Assembly (NCBI RefSeq): GCF_029952525.1
Contig: NZ_JASAOF010000001.1
Coordinates: 248,001 to 312,000, forward strand
Source of the DNA: Saccharopolyspora ipomoeae
GTDB taxonomy: Bacteria; Actinomycetota; Actinomycetes; Mycobacteriales; Pseudonocardiaceae
Reading direction: 5' to 3'
Length of the DNA stretch: 64,000 nucleotides
Shown: in pieces, positions 30,662-35,317 of the stretch
How the letters are laid out: every line of letters begins with the position of its first letter
Numbering within the stretch: position 1 is the first letter of the stretch
Position numbers and translations under genes: made by a program
The notes under the pieces: generated by a model
What the model saw: the letters and a program-made list of their open reading frames with translations, nothing else
Told to the model about the DNA's origin: nothing
The model's database searches: none

Positions 30662-32953
30662 TCAGCGGTGGATGAGGTCCAGGGCGGAGCTGATGATGGT
30701 GTCGGTGTCGAGGCCGTGGTGGCGGTAGACGTCGTCGAGGGAACCGGACTGGCCGAAACCGGTGACGCCCAAGTGGATCGAGCGGGTCCGGTTGATCCCG
30801 GCGAGGAAGGCCAGTGCGTGCGGGTGTCCGTCGAGGACGGTCACCATCGGGCGGGCTCGGTCGGCCGGGAAGACCTGGTCGAGGATCGTGCGGTCGGCGT
30901 CGCCGCGGTGGGCGCGGAAGAGCAGGTCCGGGCTGGTCACGCAGAGGACGTCCGCGTCGACGCCCTGCTCGGCGAGGCGGTCGGCGGCGGCCAGCGTCTC
31001 GGTCATGAGCGCGCCCATGCCGACCAGCGTCACCTGCGGGTCCGCGGCGCGGCGCAGCGCGTAGGCGCCGCCGACGACCTGCCTGCGACGGCGTTCCCGG
31101 GCCGCGGGATCGGCCGGCACCGACGCCAGCGACTGGTCCACCGGGCGCGTCGACAACCGCAGGTAGGACGAGGACCCGCCGGGCTTGCCGAGCTGGGACA
31201 TCGCCGCGAGCAGGCACCACTCGGTGTCGACGGCGAACGCGGGCTCGTAGCTGGTCACGCCCGGCTGCTCCAGCCCGATCGACGGCGTGCCGACCGACTG
31301 GTGCGCGCCGCCCTCCGGCGCCAGGCTCACCCCGGACGGGGTGCCGACCAGGATCGACTGGCCGCCGCCGTAGACGCCGAACGACCACGGTTCCAGCGCC
31401 CGCCCGAGGAAGCAGTCGTAGACCACCCCGATCGGCAGCAGCGGCTGACCCCAGCGGCTCCACGTCGAGCCGAGCTCGCCGAGCAGGCTCACCAGGTTCG
31501 TCTCGGCGATCCCGAGCTCGATGTGCTGTCCCGCCGGGCGTTCCCGCCAGTGCAGGATGGTCTCGGCGTCGTCGGCGAACCAGTCGACGCGCTCCGACGG
31601 CGACCAGACCCCGACCTTGTTCAGCCAGCCGCCGAGGTTGGTGGTGGAGCTGACGTCGGGCGCCAGCGTCACGATCCGCTCGGCGGCCTCGGGGGATTCG
31701 CGGGTCAGGTCCAGCAGCGTGCGCCCCAGCGCGGCCTGGGTCGTGGTGGTGCCGCTGGGGGTGCGGCCGATGTCGGCGGGCAGCCGCGGCGGCTTCACCC
31801 GAGCCCGCTCGCGACGCCGCAGTCGGGAAGCCGTTGCGGCGCAGAGCTTCCCGGCCGGGCTGTCGTCGGCGAAGCGGTGCCACGGGTCGTCGAGGTCGGC
31901 GCCGACCTGCGCGGCCAGCTGCCGCATCTGGTCCTCGCCGAGCAGCGAACCGTGGTTCTGCGGGTGTCCCTCGGTGGCCAGGCCGTAGCCCTTGATGGTG
32001 TAGGCGAAGATGACGGTGGGGCGGGTGTCGTCGATGGCCTGGAACGCCGAGTCCAGCGCGTCGAGGTCGTGGCCGCCGAGGTTGCGGATCGCCACCGCCA
32101 GCGTCTCGTCGTCCACATCGGACAGCAGGCGCTCGATCGCGCTGTCCCCGGCGGGAATCCGCGCGCGCAGCTCCTGCGGGGTGCAGCGCAGCAGGCGCTG
32201 GTACTCGGGGTTGCTCATGCCGTCGATGCGCTCGCGCAGCGCTGCACCCCCGGGCCGGGCGAACAGCTCCTCCAGCACCTGGCCGTACTTGAGCGTGATC
32301 ACCTGCCAGCCGGCGGCGGTGAACATGCCCTGCAGCCGGTTCGCGGCGATGTTGGGCACGACGCGGTCCAGCGACTGCCGGTTGAGGTCGACGATCCACA
32401 CGACCTCGCCCAGGTCGGCGACGGTCGGGTCGAGGATCGCCTCCCAGCAGGCCCCTTCGTCGAGCTCGGCGTCGCCGAGCAGCGAGTACTGGCGTCCGGC
32501 GCCCGCCCCTCCGCCGTGGGTGTCGACGTAGCGGCGAGCCACGGCACCCCAGATCGGCGCGGTGGCGCCGATGCCGACCGAGCCGGTCGAGTAGTCGGCC
32601 GGGTCGGGGTCCTTCGTGCGGCTCGGGTAGCTCTGCACGCCGCCGAACTCGCGCAGCGTGGTCAGGTGCTTCTCGTCGAGCGATCCGAGCAGGTAGTTGA
32701 TGGCGTGCAGCACCGGCGAGGCGTGCGGCTTGACCGACACCCGGTCGGCGGCGGTGAGGTGCTCGAAGTACAGCGCGGTCATGATCGACACCATTGAGGC
32801 GCAGGACGCCTGGTGCCCGCCGACCTTGAGCCCGGTGCTGTTCGGCCGGACCCGGTTGGCGTGGTCGATCATCGCGGTGGCCAGCCACAGCACCCGCTGC
32901 TCGACCTCGCGCAGATCCGCCGTCTCGGTGCGCGCCGGTACCACGCTCGTCAT
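30662..32953 (-). CDS. AceE/MdeB-like homodimeric alpha-keto acid dehydrogenase E1
   Basis: Thiamine-diphosphate enzyme of 763 residues with transketolase-like plan. The N-terminal half has the cofactor motif GDAELDEGACWEA...DLNRQSLD, the middle has HIELGIAETNLVSLLGELG, and the C-terminal domain ends with SIHLGVTGFGQSGSLDDVY. It is shorter than E. coli AceE (about 890) and resembles MdeB, a 2-ketobutyrate dehydrogenase E1 found beside an Lrp regulator. Here too a divergent Lrp-type gene lies next to it. It would oxidatively decarboxylate a 2-keto acid with E2/E3 partners from elsewhere. AGGAGG precedes the ATG. Confidence 0.82.
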   Translation of the reverse strand: MTSVVPARTETADLREVEQRVLWLATAMIDHANRVRPNSTGLKVGGHQASCASMVSIMTALYFEHLTAADRVSVKPHASPVLHAINYLLGSLDEKHLTTLREFGGVQSYPSRTKDPDPADYSTGSVGIGATAPIWGAVARRYVDTHGGGAGAGRQYSLLGDAELDEGACWEAILDPTVADLGEVVWIVDLNRQSLDRVVPNIAANRLQGMFTAAGWQVITLKYGQVLEELFARPGGAALRERIDGMSNPEYQRLLRCTPQELRARIPAGDSAIERLLSDVDDETLAVAIRNLGGHDLDALDSAFQAIDDTRPTVIFAYTIKGYGLATEGHPQNHGSLLGEDQMRQLAAQVGADLDDPWHRFADDSPAGKLCAATASRLRRRERARVKPPRLPADIGRTPSGTTTTQAALGRTLLDLTRESPEAAERIVTLAPDVSSTTNLGGWLNKVGVWSPSERVDWFADDAETILHWRERPAGQHIELGIAETNLVSLLGELGSTWSRWGQPLLPIGVVYDCFLGRALEPWSFGVYGGGQSILVGTPSGVSLAPEGGAHQSVGTPSIGLEQPGVTSYEPAFAVDTEWCLLAAMSQLGKPGGSSSYLRLSTRPVDQSLASVPADPAARERRRRQVVGGAYALRRAADPQVTLVGMGALMTETLAAADRLAEQGVDADVLCVTSPDLLFRAHRGDADRTILDQVFPADRARPMVTVLDGHPHALAFLAGINRTRSIHLGVTGFGQSGSLDDVYRHHGLDTDTIISSALDLIHR

Positions 32954-33082
32954 CACGCCTCCTCGCGTTGCCACATTGCGCTCAGAAGAACACCAAGGCA
33001 ACAATCACTGCACAAGACCTGGTCGCGGAATCGAGCAATCTGCTCACGACACCGGGCCGGAACGACCGACGAGGTGAACAGA

Positions 33083-33565
33083 TTGCCCACCGCCGAGCCG
33101 CTCGACGACATCGACATCCGCTTGCTGCTGGCGCTGCAGGACGAGCCGCGCGCGACCGTGGTGGCGCTGGCCGATCGAGTCGGGTTGTCCCGCAACACCG
33201 TTCAGGCTCGGCTGGCGAAGCTGGAACCGCGACTCGGCGCGTTCGAACGCCGCATCGACCCGACCACCCTGGGTTACCCGCTGACGGCGTTCATCACCGT
33301 CCAGGTCACCCAGCAGCACCTCGACCGGCTGGCCGCCGAGCTGGCAGAGATCCCGGAGGTCGTGGAGGTCTTCGGCCTCACCGGCGGCTCGGACCTGCTG
33401 GTGCGCGTGGTGGCCACCGACGCCGACCAGCTGTACCGCATCGCGGGCCGCATCCTCGACACCCCGGGCGTGGAGCGCACGAACTTCTCCCTGGCGATGC
33501 GCACCCTGGTCGAGTTCCGCCTGACCCCGCTACTCGCGGACAAGCTCCGCGCGGACTCCCAGTAG
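33083..33565 (+). CDS. Lrp/AsnC-family transcriptional regulator
   Basis: Regulator of 160 residues with an N-terminal winged helix-turn-helix (ALADRVGLSRNTVQARLAKL) and a C-terminal RAM ligand domain (VVEVFGLTGGSDLLVRVVA). It is divergent from the E1-like dehydrogenase gene 130 bp away and probably controls it in response to an amino acid or keto acid. The TTG at 33083 has GAGG eight bases upstream; the GTG at 33074 is the alternative. Its last 36 bases overlap, tail to tail, the polymerase gene. Confidence 0.85.
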   Translation: MPTAEPLDDIDIRLLLALQDEPRATVVALADRVGLSRNTVQARLAKLEPRLGAFERRIDPTTLGYPLTAFITVQVTQQHLDRLAAELAEIPEVVEVFGLTGGSDLLVRVVATDADQLYRIAGRILDTPGVERTNFSLAMRTLVEFRLTPLLADKLRADSQ

Positions 33566-34567
33566 CCGCACCGGGCGGTCCAGCGGGAAGCGGCCGAGGG
33601 CCTCCTGAGCTGCGATGTCGATGGGTTCGAAGTCGCGGGTGGGGGCGGCGAGGGTGACGCCGTGGGTGTGGGTGCCGAAGCGGGAGTCCCGCACCTTGAC
33701 CACCACGCGGCGGGCGAGGGTGTCGTCGGCGGCGAGGTCCTCGGAGACCTGGCGGGACAGCCGGGTGATCTCGGCGCGCATCGGCTCGACCTCACGCAGG
33801 TCGCGCTGGAAGGTCACCTCGCGGCCGTGCGAGCGGGCCCGGAACGGCTCGTCGCTGACCGGGCTGGAGTCGTAGCCGTGCGCGAGCGCCACCAGCCACG
33901 GGCCGATGTTGGGCCCGAACTCGCCCGCCAGGTCGGCCATCGGGGTGCGCGCCAGCTCGGCGACGGTGGCGATGCCGCGGGCGGCGAGCTTCTTGGCGGT
34001 CTTGGCGCCGACGCCCTGCAGCGCGTCGGTGGGCTTGTCGGCCATCACCTCGACCCAGTTGGACGCGTCGAGGCGGAACACCCCGGCGGGTTTTCCCATG
34101 CCGGAGGCCAGTTTCGCGCGCAGCTTGTTGTCGCCGATGCCGATCGAGCAGTTCAGCGCGGTCCGCTCGCGCACGTAGCGCTGGACGTAGCGGGCGGTGT
34201 CGAGGGCGTCGTCGGTGTCGACGAGCATGAACGCCTCGTCCCACCCCACCACCTCCAGGAGCCCGCCGAGCTCGCCGAGCGCGGTCATCACGTCGGCGGA
34301 GGCGGCCAGGTAGGTCTCGCGGTCGGCGGGCAGGAACACCGCCTCCGGGCAGCGCGCCGCGGCCGTGCGCAGCGGCGTTCCCGACTTCACGCCCCGGGCG
34401 CGGGCCTCGTAGGAGGCACCGGCGACCACGCCGCGCTCGGTCGGATCGCCCGAGCCGCCGACGAGCACCGGGGTGCCGACCAGGTCGGGGTGCCGCAGCA
34501 GTTCCACGGCGACGATGAACTGGTCGAGGTCGATGTGCAGCACCACCCGTTCCACGCCGATCAGCAT
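33530..34567 (-). CDS. DinB2-like Y-family DNA polymerase
   Basis: Translesion polymerase of 345 residues. The N-terminal catalytic block reads HIDLDQFIVAVEL, with metal ligands at Asp13 and in GWDEAFM; YEARARGVKSGTPL, SIGIGDNKLRAKLASGMGKP and the GVGAKTAKKLAARGI helix-hairpin-helix follow. The residue that is an aromatic steric gate in most Pol IV enzymes (Phe13 in E. coli) is Ile18 here. Mycobacterial DinB2, which has Leu at this place and the same GWDEA motif, readily inserts ribonucleotides. A short or absent C-terminal clamp-binding tail fits that clade. Convergent with the Lrp gene. Confidence 0.88.
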   Translation of the reverse strand: MLIGVERVVLHIDLDQFIVAVELLRHPDLVGTPVLVGGSGDPTERGVVAGASYEARARGVKSGTPLRTAAARCPEAVFLPADRETYLAASADVMTALGELGGLLEVVGWDEAFMLVDTDDALDTARYVQRYVRERTALNCSIGIGDNKLRAKLASGMGKPAGVFRLDASNWVEVMADKPTDALQGVGAKTAKKLAARGIATVAELARTPMADLAGEFGPNIGPWLVALAHGYDSSPVSDEPFRARSHGREVTFQRDLREVEPMRAEITRLSRQVSEDLAADDTLARRVVVKVRDSRFGTHTHGVTLAAPTRDFEPIDIAAQEALGRFPLDRPVRLLGVRAELVRE

Positions 34568-34621
34568 CGCTGGAAACGCCCGTTCCCGCCAGGTCCCGCG
34601 CCGATGCGCGAGAATGCCGGG

Positions 34622-35080
34622 ATGAGCAAGCGCAGCGCCGGAATCCTGCTGTACCGGTCCGAGGGGCCGGAGGTCCTCGTCGTGCACCCGGGCGGTCCGT
34701 TCTTCAAGAACAAGGACGACGGCGCCTGGAGCCTGCCCAAGGGCGAGCACGAACCCGACGAGGACCCCCGCCTCGCAGCGCTGCGCGAGTTCGCCGAGGA
34801 GACCGGCATGACGCTGCCGGACCGCGAGCTCCTGCCGCTGGGCGAGGTCAAGATGCGCAGCGGCAAGACCATCACGGCCTGGGCCGCCGAAGGCGATTTC
34901 GACGTGACGTCGTTGCGCAGCAACACCTTCGACCTCGAATGGCCGCCTCGCTCAGGCCGAACCCGGTCCTTCCCGGAAGTCGACAGGGCCCTCTGGTGCG
35001 ACCTGGGAACGGCCCGCACCAAGCTCAACCCGGCCCAAACCCCCTTCCTGGACCGCCTCCTCAACCACCTCACCCCCTGA
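34622..35080 (+). CDS. NUDIX hydrolase
   Basis: Protein of 152 residues with a complete Nudix box: Gly, five residues, Glu, seven residues, then REFAEETGM, starting at GEHEPDE. The preceding PFFKNKDDGAWSLPKG and the following EVKMRSGKTITAWAAE resemble small Nudix enzymes that cut diadenosine polyphosphates or oxidised nucleotides. It is divergent from the DinB2-like polymerase with a 54-bp spacer, so a shared promoter region for nucleotide-pool cleaning and mutagenic repair is possible. Confidence 0.9.
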   Translation: MSKRSAGILLYRSEGPEVLVVHPGGPFFKNKDDGAWSLPKGEHEPDEDPRLAALREFAEETGMTLPDRELLPLGEVKMRSGKTITAWAAEGDFDVTSLRSNTFDLEWPPRSGRTRSFPEVDRALWCDLGTARTKLNPAQTPFLDRLLNHLTP

Positions 35081-35146
35081 CCCCGGCCACCACACCGCGG
35101 ACCAACACACTCGGCGCAGGGTCGCGGAGGGCCGCAACGCTGCGGA

Positions 35147-35220
35147 GGGGACAGTTTTAGCCATAATCACCCATGATCAATGTCCGTTTTGCCCGGACAA
35201 TTATGACTAAAACTGTCCCC
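35147..35220. repeat. Palindromic intergenic element, copy 2
   Basis: 18-bp arms GGGGACAGTTTTAGCCAT / ATGACTAAAACTGTCCCC (one mismatch) around a 38-bp core. The core, reverse-complemented, matches copy 1 at 2804-2873 with about three changes (AATTGTCCGG...AACGGACATTGATCATGG). The stem has a paired G-C to A-T exchange relative to copy 1. It lies between the NUDIX gene and the MHS transporter terminator. Confidence 0.8.
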
Positions 35221-35280
35221 TGGCGACGAACGCGCACACCGCAACCAGCGCACTGCGGATGATGGCGGGACGTTGGAAGG

Positions 35281-35317
35281 ACGAGGCCCCGCCCGGATGT
35301 TCCGGGCGGGGCCTCGT
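35281..35317 (-). terminator. Intrinsic terminator of the MHS transporter gene
   Basis: A perfect 17-bp stem ACGAGGCCCCGCCCGGA with its complement and a 3-nt loop ends 12 bp from the transporter stop codon. It may work in both directions, also ending transcripts from the NUDIX gene. Confidence 0.85.

Follow-up and report, generated by a model that had tools for sequence, protein, structure and literature searches.

An isoleucine-gated DinB2-type polymerase gene in Saccharopolyspora ipomoeae and the steric-gate residues of its actinobacterial relatives

We analysed a 64,000-nucleotide stretch of the Saccharopolyspora ipomoeae genome (contig NZ_JASAOF010000001.1, positions 248,001 to 312,000), hereafter the window, and concentrated on one polymerase gene and its surroundings (Table 1). 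The first-pass annotation had placed a DinB-type polymerase with isoleucine as residue 18 here, and the minus-strand reading frame agrees with it to the base: the protein contains HIDLDQFIVAVEL, and its residue 18 is Ile. Both Y-family domains are present (IMS, PF00817, E 6.5e-35; IMS_C, PF11799, E 2.2e-19), and the protein passes the NCBIfam equivalog NF002883 with 485.4 bits against a cut-off of 330. Since the gene is also found in all 22 genomes of the genus, with an Ile gate in 21 and a Val gate in one, it is not a chance reading frame. The nearest named relative at the locus is Saccharopolyspora flava (96% identical). Four relatives were compared at the codon level, and in each of them the raw synonymous differences outnumber the nonsynonymous ones (32/14 to 58/27). 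One genome of the same genus (G366; L139, L184) has the dinB2 frame in two pieces.

Table 1. Positions of genes and key codons around dinB2 (numbering of the window)
Feature	Position	Strand	Remarks
dinB2, DinB2/DinP-type Y-family polymerase	33530..34567	-	345 aa; 1038 bases beginning with ATG
Gate codon ATC, Ile18 (= E. coli DinB Phe13, M. smegmatis DinB2 Leu14)	34514..34516	-	coordinates by counting
Catalytic metal-binding Asp13	34529..34531	-	alignment to E. coli DinB
Catalytic Asp110-Glu111, inside GWDEAF	34235..34240	-	alignment to E. coli DinB
Gly50, proposed "polar filter" residue (M. smegmatis DinB2 has Cys here, E. coli DinB has Thr)	34418..34420	-	alignments
NUDIX hydrolase, divergent from dinB2	34622..35080	+	152 aa, full NUDIX box; start codons 54 bp apart
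Lrp/AsnC-type regulator gene, convergent with dinB2	33074..33565	+	start uncertain
Pyruvate-dehydrogenase E1/transketolase-like protein	30662-33004	-	~780 aa; upstream of and divergent from the Lrp/AsnC-type gene

The 3' end of dinB2 overlaps that of the Lrp/AsnC-type gene by 36 bases (33530-33565), and the overlap (gap 0) recurs in five named Saccharopolyspora loci. With 207 bits, the E1/transketolase-like protein stays far under the 860 bits required for aceE. On the other side, the stretch covering the start codons of dinB2 and the NUDIX gene has a mean column identity of 84% in the window and five other Saccharopolyspora (n=6). That the polymerase gene has a NUDIX gene as its divergent neighbour was correctly noted before, the two being separate genes; the accompanying idea that the hydrolase cleans the nucleotide pool found no support. 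A scan for the NUDIX box, with a strict pattern that may miss variants, gave a divergent NUDIX gene upstream at 27 of 158 loci, namely 21 of 22 in Saccharopolyspora or g1, four of four in g12 and two of two in g21. A tblastn search added one locus in g14 (L110), bringing the count to 28 of 158 in four genera, all within the family of the window; neither method found a divergent NUDIX gene in any other genus among these loci. At one f4 locus (L115), a NUDIX box lies upstream in the same orientation as dinB2. The protein itself passes only the general Pfam NUDIX domain. As its NCBIfam and PDB matches are weak (best NCBIfam 40 of 200 bits, MutT1 29.6 of 475), no named substrate family was reached and no substrate can be named. 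The NUDIX gene is thus a locally conserved neighbour of dinB2. In M. smegmatis, dinB2 and a repressor gene are instead reported to form one operon, according to a reference title in PMC10159617.

A scan of positions 33300-35300 for sigma-70 promoters and terminators found none. We also looked for a LexA-like palindrome and for TTGTCR, which we take to be damage-response motifs. The palindrome, at up to two mismatches, has four matches in the window against a shuffle mean of 3.0, and TTGTCR, at up to one mismatch, has two against 2.4; at these thresholds, the region between dinB2 and the NUDIX gene holds neither. Damage-response control was rejected on these grounds, the matches not standing out from the shuffles and none lying between the two genes. 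An origin of dinB2 in a mobile element was also considered. All 72 phage records with a match are below 60% identity (32-35% for the 10 listed), plasmid records with a match number at least 5000, all of those listed again being below 60%, and the GC content of dinB2 (73%) is close to that of the window (72%). There is accordingly no sign of a recent move, and this origin was rejected.

The position of the gate residue follows from the alignment. When the protein is aligned by MAFFT to E. coli DinB (L164) and to DinB1 of the same genome (L001), the segment from H11 to E22 is free of gaps, and Ile18 therefore stands where E. coli DinB has Phe13 and DinB1 has its Phe. A phmmer comparison with M. 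smegmatis DinB2 (PDB 4dez/6jum; E 4e-93) likewise sets Ile18 opposite the Leu gate, numbered Leu14 in PMC4176160, so that the assignment of Ile18 to the steric gate in the first-pass annotation holds. The gate codon is ATC in the window gene as well as in all four close relatives checked. The GWDEA motif said to be common to this protein and M. smegmatis DinB2 is indeed there (VVGWDEAF), and the catalytic residues D13, D15 and D110-E111 are kept in 130 of 130 family members of the order. The C-terminal end, VRLLGVRAELVRE, comes only seven residues after the conserved LLGV, where both E. coli DinB and DinB1 of this genome continue in the alignment; judged from sequence alone, the protein consists of the polymerase region and has no clamp-binding extension. 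This is a reported trait of the DinB2 group (PMC6511836, PMC4176160). An AlphaFold model, for which 26 window and locus sequences were used, has a mean pLDDT of 94.6, and its four top PDB matches are chains of M. smegmatis DinB2 (MsDpo4; TM 0.93-0.94, 50% identity). On this evidence, the window protein is best described as a DinB2/DinP-group Y-family polymerase with an aliphatic gate and intact catalytic residues.

Besides the gate, a second sugar check, a "polar filter" residue, has reportedly been proposed by Johnson et al. in 2019. We take its position to be the Gly50 column, relying on the Cys-to-Thr variants of M. smegmatis DinB2 in the PDB. With both positions in hand, the window enzyme can be set beside known polymerases. 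It shares with M. smegmatis DinB2 (PDB 4dez, 6jul-6juo) the fold, about 50% identity, GWDEA, a non-aromatic gate and the lack of a clamp-binding tail, whereas the mycobacterial enzyme combines a Leu gate with a Cys filter, in place of Ile18 and Gly50, and has a different reported gene neighbourhood. The DinB2-like enzymes of Amycolatopsis, Kribbella, Saccharothrix and others in Ordonez et al. 2014 have the same Ile gate; among the Ile-gate sequences surveyed here, 65 of 90 have a Thr filter, while the window enzyme falls in a Gly subclade of 25 tips. Actinobacterial DinB1 (DinX), represented by L001, is a Y-family enzyme that also has a Gly filter, but it has a Phe gate, SVDEA instead of GWDEA and a long C-terminal extension, at 36% identity. 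E. coli DinB (Pol IV) has in common with the window enzyme the Y-family fold and the catalytic carboxylates, and differs by its Phe13 gate, Thr filter and clamp-binding C terminus (30% identity).

The 6.6-Mb genome has three PF00817 matches: the window DinB2, DinB1 (L001) and L003. DinB1 contains HMDMDAFFASVEQ, that is, a Phe gate, so that one DinB with an aromatic gate and one with an aliphatic gate coexist in the cell. The third protein, L003, looks catalytically dead, with no gate column aligned, and we take it to be ImuB-like.

To see how common such gates are, we surveyed the order of the window and the phylum. Matches above the NF002883 cut-off occur in 130 of 397 genomes of the order, and their gates are Ile in 65, Leu in 35, Gln in 27 and Val in three, with no aromatic residue; Ile is by these counts the ordinary gate. 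In the family of the window (f1), 53 gates are Ile and three are Leu. Order, phylum and named loci together gave 193 loci with a match. Twenty were dropped: 18 duplicates of rows already included, L141 for its short length and L042 for want of the gate column. The 173 rows kept divide into 10 aromatic ones, which are DinB1-type or from E. coli, and 163 non-aromatic ones (I 90, L 38, Q 27, V 8). In the tree, the smallest group that holds all 163 non-aromatic rows has no other tips. In a smaller, more careful tree, the branch of the non-aromatic clade, with the window DinB2 inside it and DinB1 outside, is supported at 100/100. In this sample, the non-aromatic gate therefore marks a single clade.

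The phylum survey qualifies what NF002883 can tell. Of 40 matches above its cut-off, 30 were obtained as loci, and all of these are non-aromatic. The other 10 comprise one Gln gate (G074, the same as L140), one Ile, one sequence that ends short of the gate and seven aromatic gates (Phe in six, Tyr in one). These seven (L230-L236), from other actinobacterial families, score just 335-346 bits and have neither the Q before F nor the W of GWDEA. In the tree they join the aromatic rows, outside the non-aromatic clade (SH-aLRT 99). Three matches just under the cut-off are all Tyr-gated and likewise lie outside the DinB2 clade. The proposition that every family member above the cut-off is non-aromatic is ruled out by the seven aromatic matches in 40, which also make the cut-off an imperfect boundary of the family.

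The residue at the proposed filter position varies with the gate. In the 90 Ile-gate sequences it is Thr in 65, Gly in 24 and Ser in one; in the 38 Leu-gate sequences, Cys in 28, Thr in nine and Ser in one; and in all 27 Gln-gate sequences, Cys. The DinB2 enzymes with a Gly filter, the window enzyme among them, form one group of 25 tips in the tree. In all three g31 genomes read, the Phe-gated paralogue, which we take to be DinB1, has Gly at this position as well. If these are the DinB1 enzymes for which strong discrimination is reported, a Gly filter alone does not open the pocket. The Ile and Gly pair of the window enzyme resembles the published DinB1-F23L. It should be kept in mind that the polar-filter model is disputed (PMC10639073).

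What these residues may mean for function can be judged from the published relatives. M. smegmatis DinB2, with its Leu gate, is reported to use rNTPs, as the first-pass annotation had stated, and DinB1 gains RNA polymerase activity through F23L (PMC4176160). In the same report, DinB2 retains rNTP synthesis with Ala at the gate. M. smegmatis DinB2 in magnesium still prefers dNTPs, by a factor of 100 to 297 on kpol/Kd. That paper also described, in 2014, gates of Leu, Ile or Val in actinobacterial DinB2-like polymerases, with Ile examples from Amycolatopsis, Kribbella, Catenulispora, Saccharomonospora, Saccharothrix and others; the statement is repeated in PMC4227753, and PMC12926913 treats DinP/DinB2 as an actinobacterial group adept with ribonucleotides. 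The Ile gate is thus an already known class, in print since 2014, and the value of the window gene itself is accordingly modest. In the accessible part of the open-licence literature, we found no assay of any Ile-gate DinB2. By analogy with the Leu-gated enzyme, rNTP permissiveness of the window enzyme may fairly be inferred, though not for the reason that Ile is the more branched side chain, as had been supposed: Ile and Leu each have one branch, that of Ile being at the beta carbon.

We consider it highly probable, from the sequence and from the published relative, that the window encodes a catalytically intact DinB2 (DinP) repair polymerase that would add rNTPs as well as dNTPs. The pocket with Ile18, and with Gly50, would not expel the 2'-OH, and rNTPs would then be added beside dNTPs. 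Weighing against this reading are the preference of M. smegmatis DinB2 for dNTPs in magnesium, the in vivo result on its mutagenesis given below, the dispute over the filter model and the lack of damage-response matches between dinB2 and the NUDIX gene. More speculatively, such an enzyme might take part in clamp-independent gap filling, break repair or lesion bypass under dNTP scarcity, and the tolerated ribonucleotides might later be removed by RNase HII. The genome does have RNase HII and two Ku genes; since RNase HII is present in 14 of 14 control genomes, its presence proves nothing.

It has a chance only a little below even that permissiveness is real but incidental, with selection acting on lesion bypass or mutagenesis and the gate open for other substrates, e.g. 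oxidised dNTPs. In one in vivo test, mutagenesis by M. smegmatis DinB2 is reported to be independent of ribonucleotide use, overexpressed L14F giving mutagenesis similar to the wild type (PMC10159617). On the other hand, gates that swap among I, L, V and Q within a crown of 163 tips without any aromatic residue look like avoidance of a sugar gate, although such avoidance could also serve another substrate. We regard it as unlikely that the enzyme still rejects rNTPs well, the beta-branched Ile packing on C2' and other pocket residues compensating. The retention of Ile in 21 of 22 genus genomes and its rank as the commonest gate in the sample would fit such a role, and so would the prevalent Thr filter of Ile-gate sequences, which may mean that Leu and Ile members discriminate to different degrees. 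Yet the filter of the window protein is Gly and not Thr, and neither Ala at the DinB2 gate nor Leu at that of DinB1 stood in the way of rNTP synthesis (PMC4176160). A decaying or inactive homologue similar to ImuB, for which the ImuB-like L003 in the same genome and the split frame in one same-genus genome might be cited, is very improbable given the intact catalytic residues, the presence of the gene throughout the genus and the excess of synonymous differences.

For the history of the gate, one quick tree, built without the gate and filter columns and rooted on DinB1, requires 16 gate changes, and a simple equal-rates model gives the DinB2 crown gate as Ile 0.66 and Val 0.31. With a single quick tree and this root, the reconstruction is suggestive only, as is the view that follows from it, in which Ile is the usual state and the Leu gate of the studied enzyme arose from another residue.

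The Gln-gated branch lies outside the window and is a better and more surprising lead than the window gene. A Gln gate (HVDLDQFQ...) is found in 27 of the 130 order genomes, always with a Cys filter (e.g. L023, L027, L029, L031, L032, L043, L096, L132, L135, L226), and we found no mention of glutamine at the gate in the main text, as far as accessible, of the 2014 DinB2 papers PMC4176160 and PMC4227753. Genus g31, which is probably Mycobacterium judging by its matches to PDB 4dez (Leu member E 2.6e-182, Gln member E 1.4e-168), has both types, Leu in 28 genomes and Gln in eight. In the full tree these 28 and eight gates come together at a node of support 99; the successively larger groups around it (supports 90, 7 and 83) bring in the remaining Gln rows and reach 58 tips (27 Gln, 29 Leu, 2 Val). 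In the smaller, more careful tree, Leu is nested in Gln within g31 on starred branches, the deeper Gln branches being unstarred. The gate codon is CAG in 26 of 27 Gln and CTG in 23 of 35 Leu sequences, which is consistent with a one-base step between the two. Within g31, the direction from Gln to Leu is likely; for the deeper branches it is tentative.

These observations can be joined in a tentative reading, to which we give rather less than even odds. The DinB2 clade would have lost the aromatic sugar gate once and never regained it in sampled members, starting probably from a beta-branched Ile or Val; Leu would have arisen several times, one large branch would have turned to Gln, and the M. 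smegmatis Leu would come from Gln stock by one base change. The window enzyme, open at the gate and at the proposed filter, would then tolerate ribose about as well as any natural DinB2. If this is true, enzymes with different gates provide a ready-made set in which to ask whether ribonucleotide use is itself under selection. Should rNTP use hold for I, L, V and Q gates alike, repair synthesis that tolerates ribose would be common in actinobacteria and no peculiarity of mycobacteria. The natural combinations of gate and filter would offer a means to measure the joint effect of the two proposed sugar checks.

Two of the plasmid records are worth adding: on a Tsukamurella plasmid (L225), a DinB2 gene with a Leu gate lies near uvrA, and a Gln-gated copy is found in a Nocardia record that bears the label plasmid (L226).
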